Shown one piece after another: positions 4,381-11,398 of a DNA stretch of 64,000 bases (position 1 is the stretch's first letter; every line of letters begins with the position of its first letter). The stretch is from Haloterrigena turkmenica DSM 5511. GTDB taxonomy: Archaea; Halobacteriota; Halobacteria; Halobacteriales; Natrialbaceae. The notes beneath the pieces were generated by a model that saw nothing but the letters and a program-made list of their open reading frames with translations, ran no database searches and was not told the origin of the DNA. The stretch spans positions 434,001-498,000 of the forward strand of contig NC_013743.1 in assembly GCF_000025325.1 (NCBI RefSeq), in the 5' to 3' direction. The position numbers and the translations under genes were made by a program.

Positions 4381-5898
4381 TTAACAGCCCTGGTTCTCGC
4401 CTCCGTTTTTCTTTCTTTTCTTCTTCTTTCCGTTCTCGTCATCGCCGGTGCCCTCGTTAGTCGCACGCGCTTCGGTCAGTTGCACGTTCTCGTTCACCTG
4501 ATAGTTCAGCTGCTCCGCCACCGCGTCGCCGCGGTCCGTGGCGTACGCGACCGCGCCGAACTGCTCGTTGACGTTCAGCTGCTCGACGAACTGTAACTGG
4601 TCGATGTCGACCTCGGCGACTTGCTGGGAACGCTCGCCGTCCCCGGTCTCGTAGGCGACCGCCCACGACTCGTCGCCGTTCGTGTCCGTCCCGTTCACTA
4701 CCGCACTCGCGCTGCGATGAGACTTGTCGATGTTCAGCGCCTCCGCCGACGCGACCTGCGCGTTGAAGTTCCCCTGGTAACTCTCTTGACGGGCCGTCGC
4801 CTGACTGTCGTCGACCCCGACGGCGATAGCCGCGTTCTGCAGGTTGATGTTCTCCTGCCCGACGCTCTGTACCTGCGTGACGTCGGCCGACGCCGTCTGC
4901 GCGTTCGACTGATCCGCTCCGGCTTTCGAGCGGGTCAGCTTCTCCTCCGAAACCGAGCCGACCATGTCGGCGCTGGCGGTGGCTTCGTCGAGGGATTTCG
5001 AATCGAAGTCGATCGCGGCGGCGTCGGCGACCTGTTCGTTCAGGTTACCCTGCGAACTCACCTGGCACGCCTCCGCGACGCTCCCGCTGCCGGCGGCGAT
5101 CGCGATGGCGACGCCCTGTTCGCTGACGTTCAGCTGCGAGACCGTCTGGGATTGCTCGACCGATGCGTCGGCCTCCTGGCGGTCGCCGTCGCCGATGTTC
5201 GCCGCGACGGCGTCGGCGTGCTGGTAGTTCTCGTTCGTCTGCGAACTGCGCTGGTACGCCCGCGATCGGCTCCCGTTCTCTGCGATCGCGACCGCGGTGT
5301 TCTGGCTGTTGTAGTTGTACTGGTCGACCTCCTGGCTCTGATCGATCGTCGCCTCGGCCGACTGCTCGCTCTGATAGGCGTCCTCGCCGACGACCAAGCC
5401 GGTGAACTCCCGACACTCGGCCTCCTCGGCGAAGACGACGTACGCCTGGCCGACGCCGGTGAACGTCCAGTCGGTCGTCTTCTCCTCAACGGTTACCGAT
5501 TCGGCGCTCCCGGCCTGGGTGTTGGTGTTGTTCTGGTCGGCCTGCTGTGCCGCCGTCGCCTCGCCGCCGTCGATCGCGATGCTGACGGCGTTGCCCTGCT
5601 GGGTGACGTTGAGTTGGGAGACGTCCTGGTACTGGATGACCTGCGCGGCTGAGTCCTGCGACGCCGCGGCGATCTCGTCCTCGTGCTCTTCGACCCACGA
5701 GTCGAGATCGGCTTCGGACGAGTCGGCTCCGAAGACCAGATACACGCTGTCACCGTCGACGTCGCGCTTTCCGTCCGAGTCCGCGTGCGAACGGCCAGTA
5801 CCCGTTACGAGGGCGCCGGCACCGAATCCGGTCGCTGCGATTCCTTTGAGATAGCCTCTTCGCTTCAGTCCGTCCTGGTTTTCGTGATTGTCAGCCAT
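4381..5898 (-). CDS. Tat-exported Gln/Asn-ladder repeat protein, putative curli-like amyloid
   Basis: 505 residues. A twin-arginine signal (KRRGYLKGIAATGFGAGAL) at residues 12-30 fixes the start at the ATG 5898. The rest is five copies of a ~50-residue unit at about 85-133, 182-233, 243-295, 336-389 and 427-480. The pattern is Q-x-Q-x-V-x-Q-x-N, then x-x-Q-x-x-A-x-A-x-A, then Q-x-x-x-Q-x-N-x-N-x-Q-x-A. This is the Gln/Asn/Ala ladder of beta-solenoid amyloids such as curlin (typical motif Q-x-G-x-N-x-A-x-x-x-Q). Spacers carry VYLVFGADSSEAD and AYVVFAEEAECRE stretches. Cysteines are at 162, 278 and the very last residue (505). The tail holds KKKKRKK, odd for a halophile. No membrane anchor is seen. 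Homology to curlin is inferred from pattern only. Confidence 0.8.
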   Translation of the reverse strand: MADNHENQDGLKRRGYLKGIAATGFGAGALVTGTGRSHADSDGKRDVDGDSVYLVFGADSSEADLDSWVEEHEDEIAAASQDSAAQVIQYQDVSQLNVTQQGNAVSIAIDGGEATAAQQADQNNTNTQAGSAESVTVEEKTTDWTFTGVGQAYVVFAEEAECREFTGLVVGEDAYQSEQSAEATIDQSQEVDQYNYNSQNTAVAIAENGSRSRAYQRSSQTNENYQHADAVAANIGDGDRQEADASVEQSQTVSQLNVSEQGVAIAIAAGSGSVAEACQVSSQGNLNEQVADAAAIDFDSKSLDEATASADMVGSVSEEKLTRSKAGADQSNAQTASADVTQVQSVGQENINLQNAAIAVGVDDSQATARQESYQGNFNAQVASAEALNIDKSHRSASAVVNGTDTNGDESWAVAYETGDGERSQQVAEVDIDQLQFVEQLNVNEQFGAVAYATDRGDAVAEQLNYQVNENVQLTEARATNEGTGDDENGKKKKRKKNGGENQGC

Positions 5899-6191: not shown

Positions 6192-6584
6192 TCAGGGAGC
6201 CGGATCGACGGTGACCGTCCGTGAGTCGAAGCCGTTCTCGCACTCGATTCGCACCGGAAACACGTCTGTCGTCTGGACGGGGTAGGTCCTGTAGCCGAGC
6301 GTGACCGTGGTGCTCCGACCCGATGCGAGGGATACGTACTGGTTGTCGACCTCCGTCGGATCGTGACCGACGATACACCGCGCGTACCCCTGTAGTCGCA
6401 GGCGCCCGTGGTTCGTAATTCGTGCCGTCACGTTGAGCCACTGCCCGCCCTGAACCGGTTCGTTCGTTCTGATGATCTGTACCGTTGGTCGCGTGTGTCG
6501 ACCCGCCGCAGTCGACGCACCGCCGACGCCGGTGACCGCCGCGACGAGGGTGCCCGTCCCCCTCAGGATCTCTCTTCGTTCCAT
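6192..6584 (-). CDS. Small secreted beta-sandwich (CARDB/CsgH-like) protein
   Basis: 130 residues. The N-terminus MERREILRGTGTLVAAVTGV is a Tat-like signal (RR-E-I-L) followed by an Ala-rich cleavage region. The mature ~100 residues alternate short beta strands (VQIIRTNEPV, WLNVTARITNH, LQGYARCIVG, STTVTLGYRTY, FPVRIECEN, SRTVTVDP), as in CARDB or other Ig-like folds. Two cysteines (ARC, IEC) could form a disulfide. It lies 293 bases upstream of, and in the same direction as, the Gln/Asn repeat gene. By position and size it could be a secretion partner like bacterial CsgC/CsgH, but that is inference. Confidence 0.7.
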   Translation of the reverse strand: MERREILRGTGTLVAAVTGVGGASTAAGRHTRPTVQIIRTNEPVQGGQWLNVTARITNHGRLRLQGYARCIVGHDPTEVDNQYVSLASGRSTTVTLGYRTYPVQTTDVFPVRIECENGFDSRTVTVDPAP

Positions 6585-8067: not shown

Positions 8068-8412
8068 TCATCTCTTAGTAACCGGGTGACCATTAAAGCA
8101 CTTTCGAAAGCGACCGGCTCCCGCACGACAATTTCACGCACGACCTGCTTGTAAACGGCCGTCTCTCGAGATCGGACAACGATAGCCCGGCGCCCCGTCG
8201 ACCACGCTGACGTTTATATTCGATCAGGCGCCCAGCGAGAGCCATGATCCGCCGCTCGAGTCTCGTCGACACACGGTCCGAGGCCGCCGTGTCGGACCGA
8301 CCGAAATCGCTCGATCGAATCGGTAGCACCGCCGTACTCGTCGGCCGTCGACCCGCGCCGGGACGCCGAATGAACAACGCTTATGCGCGGCCTACCCATG
8401 CACGAACATAGA
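8068..8412. other. Intergenic between tRNA-Arg and RPA gene
   Basis: It holds the tRNA-Arg promoter (left), a strong TATA-like GTTTATATTC at about 8213 and the rpa promoter at 8380. An open frame 8244-8411 (55 codons, Arg/Ser-rich) starts about 30 bases after the TATATTC element and stops just before the RPA start. I do not regard it as a proven gene. Confidence 0.3.
8380..8385 (+). promoter_or_regulatory. TATA box of RPA2-like gene
   Basis: CTTATG lies 28-33 bases before the ATG at 8413. This supports a leaderless transcript and the choice of that start over the in-frame ATG at 8398. Confidence 0.45.
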
Positions 8413-9876
8413 ATGAGCGACATCGAGGGCGTGTACGAAGACCTCGAGGCCGACGTTTCTCTCGAGGAGTTTCGCGAGGCCGTCGAGGCGAAAGTCGAGC
8501 AGATGGGCGGACTCGCGGACGAGGAGACGGCGGCGATGCTCGTCGCTCACGAGATCGGCGAGAGCGAGGTCGGCGGCATCGCCGACATCGAACCCGGCAT
8601 GGAGGAGGCGAAGTTCGTCGCCAAAGTGCTCTCGATCGGCGACGTACGGACGTTCGAACGCGACGGCGAGGACGAGGACGGCCGCGTCGTCAACGTCGAG
8701 GTCGCCGATGAGACTGGCTCCGTCCGGGCCGCCTTCTGGGACGAGCACGCCGAGGCCGCCACCGAGGAACTCGAGGAGGGCCAGGTACTGCGAATCAAGG
8801 GGCGTCCCAAGGAGGGCTTTTCCGGCGTCGAGGTCAGCGTCGACGACGTCGAACCGGATCCGGACACGGAGATCGACGTCCAAGTTTCGGACACTCACAC
8901 CGTCGAGGCCCTCTCGCTCGGTCTCTCGAACGTCAACCTCGTCGGGCTGGTCTTAGACACCGACAGCGTCCGCACCTTCGACCGCGACGACGGCTCCGAG
9001 GGGAAGGTGTCGAACCTCGTCCTCGGCGACGAGACCGGCCGCATCCGCGTCACGCTGTGGGACGAGCAGGCCGACCTCGCGACCGAGTTCGACCCCGGCG
9101 AGACCGTCGAGGTGATCGACGGCTACGTCAAGGAACGCGACGGCAACCTCGAGCTCCACGTCGGCAACCGCGGCGCCGTCGAGGAAGTCGACGAGGAGGT
9201 CGAGTACGTCCCCGAGAGCACGCCCATCGAGGACCTCGAGATCGGCCAGACGGTCGACATCGCGGGCGTCGTCCGCTCTGCGGACCCCAAGCGGACCTTC
9301 GACCGCGACGACGGCTCCGAGGGCCAGGTCCGGAACATTCGCGTCCAGGACGCGACCGGCGACATCCGCGTCGCGATGTGGGGCGAGAAGGCCGATCTCG
9401 ACGTCGGGCCGGGCGACGAGGTCGCACTCGGCGACGTCGAGATCCAGGACGGCTGGCAGGACGACCTCGAGGCCTCCGCGGGCTGGCAGTCGACGATCAC
9501 GGTTCTCGAGTCCGACTCCGGCAGTTCCGGCGGCGAGAGCGCTGCGGACGATGCGAGCAACGAGAACGCCGGTCTCTCGGCGTTCGGTGGCGATGCCGAC
9601 GGCCCAGCCGAGGAGGAAAGCGAAACAAGCGCCGCCTCGAGCGACGACGCCCGTGGCACCACCGGTGCCAACGCCGACGCCGAAACCGACGAGCCGACCG
9701 ACGGCGAGGAACTCGAGTTCACCGGCGTCGTCGTGCAGGCCGGCGACCCGGTCGTACTGGACGATGGCGAGTCGACGATGAGCGTCGCGACCGACGCCGA
9801 CGTCGGCCTCGGCGAGGAGGTCACCGCCCGCGGGATCGTCCGGGACGGTCGCCTCGAGGCAAACGACGTGTTCTGA
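8413..9876 (+). CDS. rpa2: Single-stranded DNA-binding protein, RPA2-like
   Basis: 487 residues with repeated OB folds at about residues 65-155, 170-260 and 280-375, each with the signature F-[DE]-R-D-(D)G then V-x-N-x-x-x-x-D-x-T-G-x-[IV]-R-x-[AT]-[LF]-W. An acidic Ser/Gly-rich linker follows, then a partial OB fold at 425-487. There is no zinc finger. Its length and domain order fit the haloarchaeal RPA2 group, which coats ssDNA in replication and repair. It is followed after 66 bases by a histone and its deacetylase, a DNA-management cluster. The start was chosen by TATA spacing. Confidence 0.92.
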   Translation: MSDIEGVYEDLEADVSLEEFREAVEAKVEQMGGLADEETAAMLVAHEIGESEVGGIADIEPGMEEAKFVAKVLSIGDVRTFERDGEDEDGRVVNVEVADETGSVRAAFWDEHAEAATEELEEGQVLRIKGRPKEGFSGVEVSVDDVEPDPDTEIDVQVSDTHTVEALSLGLSNVNLVGLVLDTDSVRTFDRDDGSEGKVSNLVLGDETGRIRVTLWDEQADLATEFDPGETVEVIDGYVKERDGNLELHVGNRGAVEEVDEEVEYVPESTPIEDLEIGQTVDIAGVVRSADPKRTFDRDDGSEGQVRNIRVQDATGDIRVAMWGEKADLDVGPGDEVALGDVEIQDGWQDDLEASAGWQSTITVLESDSGSSGGESAADDASNENAGLSAFGGDADGPAEEESETSAASSDDARGTTGANADAETDEPTDGEELEFTGVVVQAGDPVVLDDGESTMSVATDADVGLGEEVTARGIVRDGRLEANDVF

Positions 9877-9942
9877 CGGCGCGAGCAACCTCATCGGACG
9901 TCTAGGAAAAGCGTTAAGGGACTTTGCTCCGCCTAGCATGGT

Positions 9943-10374
9943 ATGAACGTCGAACTCCCGTTCGCCCCGGTGGACACGATCATCCGGCGGAACGCGGGCG
10001 ATCTACGGGTGAGTGCCGACGCGTCGAAGGAACTCGCAACGCGGATTCAGGAACACGGAAGCGAGCTCGCAATCGACGCCGCCGAGCAAGCGACCCGAGA
10101 CGGGCGCAAGACGCTGATGGCCCAGGACTTCGGCGTCGAGACGGTCGTCGATAAGGACGACCTCGAGCTGCCGGTCGCGCCCGTCGACCGTATCGCCAGA
10201 CTCGAAATCGACGACCGATATCGCGTCTCGATGGACGCCCGGGTGGCGCTGGCAGACATTCTCGAGGACTACGCGGACAACGTCGCTCGAGCGGCCGCGA
10301 CCCTCGCGCGCCACGCCGACCGCCGGACGATCACCGAAGACGACATCGAGACGTACTTCTCGCTGTTCGAGTGA
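9943..10374 (+). CDS. hstA: Archaeal histone, fused doublet
   Basis: 143 residues made of two histone folds in tandem. Fold 1 is about residues 3-66 (LPFAPVDTIIRRNAGDLRVS through DGRKTLMAQDFG). Fold 2 is about 76-142 (LPVAPVDRIARLEIDDRYRVS through ADRRTITEDDIETYFSLF). Such covalent heterodimer-like histones are typical of haloarchaea. It binds DNA and in halophiles may act more as a regulator than as bulk chromatin. One base separates its stop from the deacetylase ATG, so the two are co-translated. Confidence 0.97.
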   Translation: MNVELPFAPVDTIIRRNAGDLRVSADASKELATRIQEHGSELAIDAAEQATRDGRKTLMAQDFGVETVVDKDDLELPVAPVDRIARLEIDDRYRVSMDARVALADILEDYADNVARAAATLARHADRRTITEDDIETYFSLFE

Positions 10375-10375
10375 G

Positions 10376-11398
10376 ATGCAGTTTGGCTACAGCGAGACTT
10401 GTCTCGCACACGATCCCGGTTCGCGCCACCCGGAGTCGCCGGACCGGCTCCGCGCGATACGGGAGCGACTGAAGAAGAAACACGGCGTCGAGTACGTCGA
10501 GGCAGACCCCTGCGATCTCGACCGGCTGGCGGCCGTCCACGAGCGGGAGTACCTCGAGTCCGTCCGGGAGTTCTGCGCCGACGGCGGCGGCAACTGGGAC
10601 CCCGACACGAGCGCGGTCGAGGAGACCTGGGACGCGGTCTGCCAGAGCGCCGGGCTCGCCTGCTGGGCCGTCGAGGCCGCCCTCGAGGGAGCGACGGGGC
10701 GGCGGACGCCGTTCTCGATCGGCCGGCCGCCGGGCCACCACGCCGTCTACGACGACGCCATGGGGTTTTGCTTCGTCAACAACGTCGCGGTCGCCGCCCA
10801 GTACGCGCTGGACGCGTACGACGTCGATCGGGTCGCGATCGTCGACTGGGACGTCCACCACGGCAACGGGACCCAGGACATCTTCTACGATCGCGACGAC
10901 GTCTTCTTCGTCTCGATCCACGAACAGGGGCTCTATCCGGGCACCGGCGCCGTCGACGAGACCGGCGAGGGAGCGGGCGAGGGAACCACGATGAACATCC
11001 CGATGCCCGCCGGCACCGACGACCGCGAGTATCTCGCGGCGGTCGAGGGGCCGATCAGCCACGCGCTGACCGACTACGATCCCGATCTGCTCCTGATCAG
11101 CGCCGGCTTCGACGCCCATCGCCACGATCCGATCTCGCGCATTCGGCTCTCGACGGAGGCCTACGCCCTGATGACCGACCGATTCCGGACGCTGGCCGAC
11201 GAGACCGACGCCGCCTTCGCCTTCATCCTCGAAGGCGGCTACGGACTGGACGTTCTCGCGGACAGCGTCGCCATCGTCCACGAGACCTTCGACGGACGCG
11301 AGCCGATCGAGCCCGACTCGGAGTTCGGCGAGAAGGCCGAGTCGGCGCTCGACGAGGTTCTCGAGGCGCACGGACTGGATATCGACCTCGGGGACTGA
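10376..11398 (+). CDS. Histone deacetylase family protein (class II-like)
   Basis: 340 residues with the complete arginase/deacetylase core: GRPPGHHAVYDDAMGFCFVNN (tandem active-site histidines, about residue 120), VDWDVHHGNGTQDIFY (Zn Asp and His, about 160), SAGFDAHRHDP (Zn Asp, about 243) and LEGGYG near 287. It removes acetyl groups from lysines or polyamine-like substrates. The one-base spacing to the histone gene suggests, but does not prove, histone as substrate. Lysines are few in this histone (one in GRKT, one in SKEL, one in DKDD). Confidence 0.95.
   Translation: MQFGYSETCLAHDPGSRHPESPDRLRAIRERLKKKHGVEYVEADPCDLDRLAAVHEREYLESVREFCADGGGNWDPDTSAVEETWDAVCQSAGLACWAVEAALEGATGRRTPFSIGRPPGHHAVYDDAMGFCFVNNVAVAAQYALDAYDVDRVAIVDWDVHHGNGTQDIFYDRDDVFFVSIHEQGLYPGTGAVDETGEGAGEGTTMNIPMPAGTDDREYLAAVEGPISHALTDYDPDLLLISAGFDAHRHDPISRIRLSTEAYALMTDRFRTLADETDAAFAFILEGGYGLDVLADSVAIVHETFDGREPIEPDSEFGEKAESALDEVLEAHGLDIDLGD

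Follow-up and report, generated by a model that had tools for sequence, protein, structure and literature searches.

In curlin, repeats of about 23 residues (Q-x10-Q) follow one another without gaps. Its strands follow the pattern N/S-$-Psi-$-Psi-$-Q, in which N, both Psi positions and Q point inward (PMC10192328). The repeats of FapC are imperfect and fixed in number, with ~52 residues per layer or slightly more; the Asn/Gln network inside is conserved, the surface residues vary, and the linkers are long and variable (PMC12392863, PMC12822426). FapC polymerises despite the fixed repeat number and the linkers (PMC12822426). A survey of curli and Fap operons across GTDB named bacterial phyla only, and a survey of 2012 mentioned curli-like repeats in one archaeal protein (PMC3521004). 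A sheath protein of the methanogen Methanospirillum hungatei, likewise archaeal and extracellular, is described as amyloid-like (PMC10593813); its likeness to the protein studied here lies in that description. Biofilms of Haloferax volcanii are stained by Congo red and ThT; which protein is responsible is not established, and the one suggestion is a putative gene, HVO_1403 (PMC4180959). The original prediction on the present locus had likewise named the staining as known and the proteins behind it as not.

The present study deals with a gene in a stretch of 64,000 nucleotides of Haloterrigena turkmenica DSM 5511 (NC_013743.1, positions 434,001 to 498,000), which is called the window throughout. 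Its product carries five Gln/Asn-rich repeats and belongs to a real, widespread and unnamed family of haloarchaeal proteins. The layout of the protein is like that of the fibre proteins in bacterial biofilms, no sequence kinship to them was found, and the family is a good candidate, open to testing, for a biofilm fibre of archaea.

Repeats, conservation parity and predicted structure

The open reading frame lies on the minus strand, with ATG at 5898 and stop at 4383-4381, and codes for 505 amino acids, as had been read originally (Table 1). Also borne out were the presence of three cysteines, at residues 162, 278 and 505 (the C-terminal residue), and of a probable Tat signal, judged by its motif (LKRRGYLKG at residues 11-19, then a hydrophobic stretch and no lipobox Cys). 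The Lys/Arg cluster near the end, which had been singled out as unusual, does exist in this protein, but neither the tail nor the terminal Cys is fixed in the family; within the Tat clade, the C-terminal 45 residues contain anything from 1 to 29 K+R. A PGF-CTERM tail (TIGR04126) is absent from the window protein.

Table 1. Features of the gene and its product in window coordinates. For the repeats, the two motif positions are the first residues of QxQxxxQxNxxxQ and of its partner QxxxQxNxNxQ, and the p-values refer to conservation parity of the two strands.
Feature	Residues	Coordinates	Strand	Basis
Whole gene including stop codon, putative Tat-signal Q/N-ladder repeat protein		4381..5898	-	ORF and homologs
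Putative Tat signal peptide	1-40	5779..5898	-	RRGYLK motif, hydrophobic stretch, SHA/D at expected end, without lipobox Cys
Twin-arginine motif KRRGYLKG	12-19	5842..5865	-	R13 invariant in A2
Conserved N-terminal segment DGDxVYLVFGAD...W	48-76	5671..5757	-	columns near-invariant; no conservation parity
Repeat 1	82-134	5497..5655	-	motifs at 89 and 118; p=0.028 and 0.0002
Spacer 1-2	135-179	5362..5496	-	conserved AYVVFAEE...F.G segment; no parity
Repeat 2	180-234	5197..5361	-	motifs at 187 and 216; p=0.0002, both strands; modelled
Repeat 3	242-297	5008..5175	-	motifs at 249 and 279; p=0.0008 and 0.0002; modelled
Repeat 4	335-389	4732..4896	-	motifs at 342 and 371; p=0.0002, both strands
Repeat 5	427-477	4468..4620	-	motifs at 434 and 463; p=0.0004 and 0.0010
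Basic cluster KKKKRKK	491-497	4408..4428	-	sequence; variable within Tat clade

The claim of five repeats stood, with one correction. Five Q/N repeats of ~51-56 residues exist, but they are not units joined end to end; their starts are separated by 98, 62, 93 and 92 residues, and long spacers come after repeats 1, 3 and 4. The two strand motifs occur 5 and 8 times in the protein, the count of 8 including three overlaps with the first motif, as compared to 0.006 and 0.0035 times in shuffled sequences. The predicted recurrence of Gln or Asn at every second residue was confirmed by 36 lag-2 pairs against 14.7 expected (z 6.7), with a further excess at lags 4, 6 and 8 and a deficit at odd lags. 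Effectively all of 41 homologs have five repeats; 34 carry the strict motif and the rest a substituted motif position. Within a rung, the two strand motifs of these homologs are offset by a nearly constant 28-30 residues, whereas the spacing between repeats varies.

In an alignment of 41 proteins, conserved positions take turns with variable ones along each of the ten repeat strands. Over these strands the mean entropy is 0.34-0.75 bits on the conserved face and 1.55-2.37 on the variable one. Permutation gave p 0.0002-0.0010 for nine strands and 0.028 for one; since the strand limits were set after the motifs had been seen and the proteins are related, these values express strength and are not independent tests. 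Parity was absent (p 0.2-0.85) from four stretches used as controls, namely three spacers and the N-terminal segment. The conserved face reads about A-V/I-Q-Q-V-Q-N-N-Q in strand 1 and about A-A-Q-S-Q-N-N-Q-A-A-A-N in strand 2, and the opposite face is highly variable with many charged or polar residues. Strong evidence from the sequence thus favours repeats that are stacked beta-strand rungs with Q/N ladders. This evidence is independent of AlphaFold2, because parity and strand offsets come from the sequence; for proteins with perfect repeats, beta-solenoids are known to be over-predicted by AlphaFold2 (PMC11795689).

Structure prediction, which had been proposed originally as a check, recovered the rung periodicity in the best model of repeats 2-3, but confidence for the full length was low. 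The full-length AlphaFold2 model from 29 sequences has two long strands per repeat in all five repeats, at a mean pLDDT of 51.5. For repeats 2-3 (41 sequences) the best model reached a mean pLDDT of 79.2 and the other four 58, 42, 37 and 33. In that best model both repeats have the same three-strand pattern, at 3-23, 27-32 and 36-61 and at 65-85, 89-94 and 99-124. The conserved N-terminal segment is modelled as a strand and a helix. Conservation places the Q/N residues on one face, and the model would bury that face. Foldseek comparison of the repeats 2-3 model with 350,542 PDB chains ranked FapC first (9u4u, E=0.003, TM 0.19, rmsd 25), an E. coli CsgA fibril second (8enq, E=0.57) and FapC again third (9nqd, E=0.79). 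This ranking may serve as a pointer only, because no match is significant (E above 0.001 throughout) and the TM-scores are very low. Viral models gave no Foldseek match at E 0.001 or below. The original reading of stacked rungs with Q/N ladders is therefore carried by conservation parity, with weaker support from AlphaFold2 and Foldseek, and the formation of fibres would be a step beyond it.

A haloarchaeal family with two predicted export routes and small paralogs

Pfam, NCBIfam and PHROGs contain no relative of the window protein, and sequence search of the PDB gave no usable chain. A PhoQ chain that appeared in the PDB profile search (E 0.11 and 0.005) was rejected as compositional, a short Q/N-containing stretch being what matched. 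According to the original prediction, Halobacteria have no known family of this kind. This holds for the named libraries searched, but the family is common in the group, where its members are annotated as hypothetical proteins. Of 391 Halobacteria genomes sampled, 86 carry it, a few of these by weak matches of signal-peptide length only; the carriers fall into 28 of 86 genera, mostly Natrialbaceae. Relatives occur at 13 loci of the genome contig collection, and nine haloarchaeal plasmid records contain one member each, annotated as hypothetical or PGF-CTERM protein. A search at the level of phyla gave matches only in Natrialbaceae; its sample missed known carriers in other families and sets no bound on the range. 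Among viral contigs 78 pattern matches were obtained and no relative was confirmed. Searches of open-access literature, outside which lie most subscription journals and bioRxiv, turned up no description of the family, and this absence is weak evidence.

The genome of H. turkmenica contains a second full-length copy at C1:2232199-2233701 (L018:7197-8711), which has a Sec-type signal. In a tree of 41 proteins a single branch with support 100/100 separates 17 Tat-type from 24 Sec-type members, these types being assigned by signal-peptide pattern without a trained predictor. Five members of the Sec clade form a subclade with a C-terminal extension, in which PGF-CTERM (NCBIfam) scores above cut-off in four and just below in the fifth. 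These tails are direct sequence evidence that would place family members on the cell surface. Together with the putative Tat or Sec signals they support a surface or extracellular location. Members of the Tat type do not have the PGF-CTERM anchor, and several end in a variable Lys-rich tail. The Tat clade includes Haloterrigena, Natronococcus, Halalkalicoccus, Halogranum, Haladaptatus and Halocatena. Transfer of the genes between genera is likely, because this clade spans many genera and some of its copies are borne on plasmids. In Natronococcus sp. A-GB7 (L015:5485-6702) the C-terminal part of a Tat-type member is fused in frame to unrelated sequence, and this is probably a recombined remnant.

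Small secreted proteins with about one repeat each accompany several of the Sec genes. They are divergent and lie 0.5-2.2 kb upstream of seven of the Sec genes examined (L018, L063, L064, L067, L068, L069 and L076). Halogranum (L010), where the small paralog lies downstream, is the only case found beside a Tat gene; the search used fixed patterns and others may have been missed. Several of the small proteins match the family profile, with E 1e-9 (L018), 8e-12 (L010) and 4e-7 (L044). They could act as nucleators or caps by analogy with CsgB and FapB. As one rung cannot make a multi-rung solenoid alone, they plausibly stack on something else. Two near-identical secreted one-repeat paralogs of 118 aa form a tandem pair at L018:9818-10174 and 10197-10553 and are divergent from the family's Sec copy. 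The Tat and Sec clades, the PGF-CTERM subclade of the latter and the small one-repeat secreted paralogs near several Sec genes are new here.

Comparison with curlin and Fap and the competing readings

The original prediction was reminded of curlin, and a likeness does exist. The presumably inward Q, N, A, V/I and S of the window family fall on alternate residues, and in strand 2 the signature S-x-A-x-A-x-Q is close to the curlin motif as published, if S is allowed in place of N (PMC10192328). Kinship did not survive comparison. PF07012 at E 10 has no match in the window protein or in 28 relatives, profiles of half-repeats score against CsgA/CsgB within the range of shuffled sequences, and hhalign of the family with CsgA/CsgB gives a probability of 0.1%. 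Membership of curlin (CsgA/CsgB, PF07012) thus fails every sequence test made. The arrangement is also different, with a rung of about 54 residues, spacers, and starts 62-98 residues apart instead of contiguous repeats. CsgG (PF03783) has no match in the genome of H. turkmenica; a cell bounded by a single membrane would not be expected to have such a channel. It could be possible that the window protein works like curlin without being related to it.

A different gene of the same genome does match PF07012. L058:7052-7789 (contig C1, minus strand) codes for a 245-aa protein with a Sec signal and 19-residue repeats (NNDADVDQRNKAFVDQDGK), which scores above the cut-off in a PF07012 search of the genome in which the window gene has no match. 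Among 391 Halobacteria it was found only in the genus of the window. Both proteins are secreted Q/N ladders encoded in one genome, and their profiles are not similar.

FapC appears to be a closer analogue than curlin because of its fixed imperfect repeats, layers of ~52 residues, inner Asn/Gln, variable surface and long linkers. The window family likewise has a fixed number of imperfect repeats and spacers of varying length. The differences are that FapC has three repeats against five, that export here would be through Tat or Sec in a cell without an outer membrane, and that no fap-like operon is seen beside the window gene. Profile searches of PDB sequences returned no FapC chain at E 10, and the protein is not filed as a Fap member because no sequence similarity to FapC was found.

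The reading that we favour, if by a little more than even chance, is an extracellular beta-solenoid of the functional-amyloid type, in which five rungs stack and molecules stack edge to edge into fibres. Each repeat would be one rung of two long strands and a short joining strand. The Q/N face would be turned inward, and its Gln and Asn side chains would form hydrogen-bonded ladders across the five stacked rungs. Through its open edges one molecule could stack on the next, and the fibre so built would lie at the cell surface or within the matrix of the biofilm. The copy in the window would leave the cell via Tat without a membrane anchor, and the Sec copies via Sec, those of one subclade being held at the surface by the PGF-CTERM tail. 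The small one-repeat paralogs beside Sec genes may nucleate or cap the stacks. Fibre formation is favoured by these paralogs and by the Fap-like layout. Several observations argue against it: only one AlphaFold2 model of five is confident, it covers repeats 2-3 and comes from a method with a bias towards solenoids, while the full-length pLDDT is low; no sequence kinship to CsgA, CsgB, FapC or solved chains was found, and all Foldseek E-values exceed 0.001; and the small paralogs adjoin Sec genes, with Halogranum as the one exception.

The five rungs could on the other hand form a discrete monomer that does not polymerise, a surface adhesin, a spacer or an S-layer-associated protein whose ladders hold its own rungs only. 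A single molecule rather than a polymer is suggested because the conserved N-terminal segment and conserved segments in spacers 1-2 and 4-5 could be caps, and the constancy of five repeats in 41 homologs, the anchoring of single molecules by PGF-CTERM in one subclade and the habit of Tat to carry folded proteins point the same way. Yet FapC, with fixed repeats and linkers, polymerises (PMC12822426), one-repeat paralogs alone cannot make a multi-rung solenoid, and no adhesin or glycan-binding domain was found with Pfam and NCBIfam. Such a monomer is the main rival, a serious contender that we nevertheless consider less likely. It is improbable that the Q/N/A face is exposed as a flat array for a ligand, e.g. 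a surface polysaccharide, as in ice-binding solenoids: these solenoids conserve regular exposed arrays and several stand far down the Foldseek list, and genes for sugar-nucleotide enzymes and glycosyltransferases are found close to several members of the family, but it is the other face that is variable and rich in charged or polar residues as a surface would be, and the conserved face also carries Ala, Val and Ile. A low-complexity, largely disordered secreted protein, with the rung pattern as an artefact of modelling, would fit the low mean pLDDT of the full chain and the known bias of AlphaFold2; the alternating conservation of ten strands and the near-constant strand offsets, both independent of AlphaFold2, make it very improbable. 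The slightest chance of all is given to a true curlin acquired from bacteria, in spite of the fit of strand 2 to the published motif and of the PF07012 match elsewhere in the genome, given the failed profile comparisons, the rung of about 54 residues against 23 and the lack of CsgG.

If the beta-solenoid fibre is real, it would be an unusual amyloid-type subunit that has switched between Sec and Tat export, and the control of polymerisation before export would become addressable within one family. The family would supply named genes in other haloarchaea, and the conserved pattern predicts where single mutations should break a fibre. The staining in Haloferax is perhaps not explained by it, because no Haloferax locus is among those recovered. 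A wider proposal, which we hold tentatively and at less than even chance, is an amyloid system specific to haloarchaea that arose independently of curli and Fap, with sister clades exported by Sec (unfolded) or Tat (folded), one-repeat starters or caps, and amyloid staining of biofilms in the carrier species.

Gene surroundings

The neighbours of the window gene code for an AMMECR1 protein, a FilR1-type regulator and a small Tat-signal protein without a family, and none of them points to a function. The small protein (130 aa, window 6192-6584, minus strand) lies just upstream of the repeat gene and has a Tat-like signal and no Pfam family. Elsewhere, the loci L065, L071, L072, L075, L016, L009 and L018 have sugar-nucleotide, epimerase or glycosyltransferase genes, or else glmS together with a GlmU-like gene, in the vicinity of the family member, and these members are from both the Tat and the Sec clades. 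A PF00483 gene occurs within about 7 kb in 5 of 7 genomes, but four of these seven had been picked for showing such a gene in the first place. As the loci were not chosen blind and share ancestry, a link of the family to surface polysaccharide is only suggestive. Further along the window, on the plus strand at 8383-11398, an OB-fold/RPA-like gene, a histone-fold doublet and a histone-deacetylase-domain gene follow one another head to tail, the latter two nearly touching.
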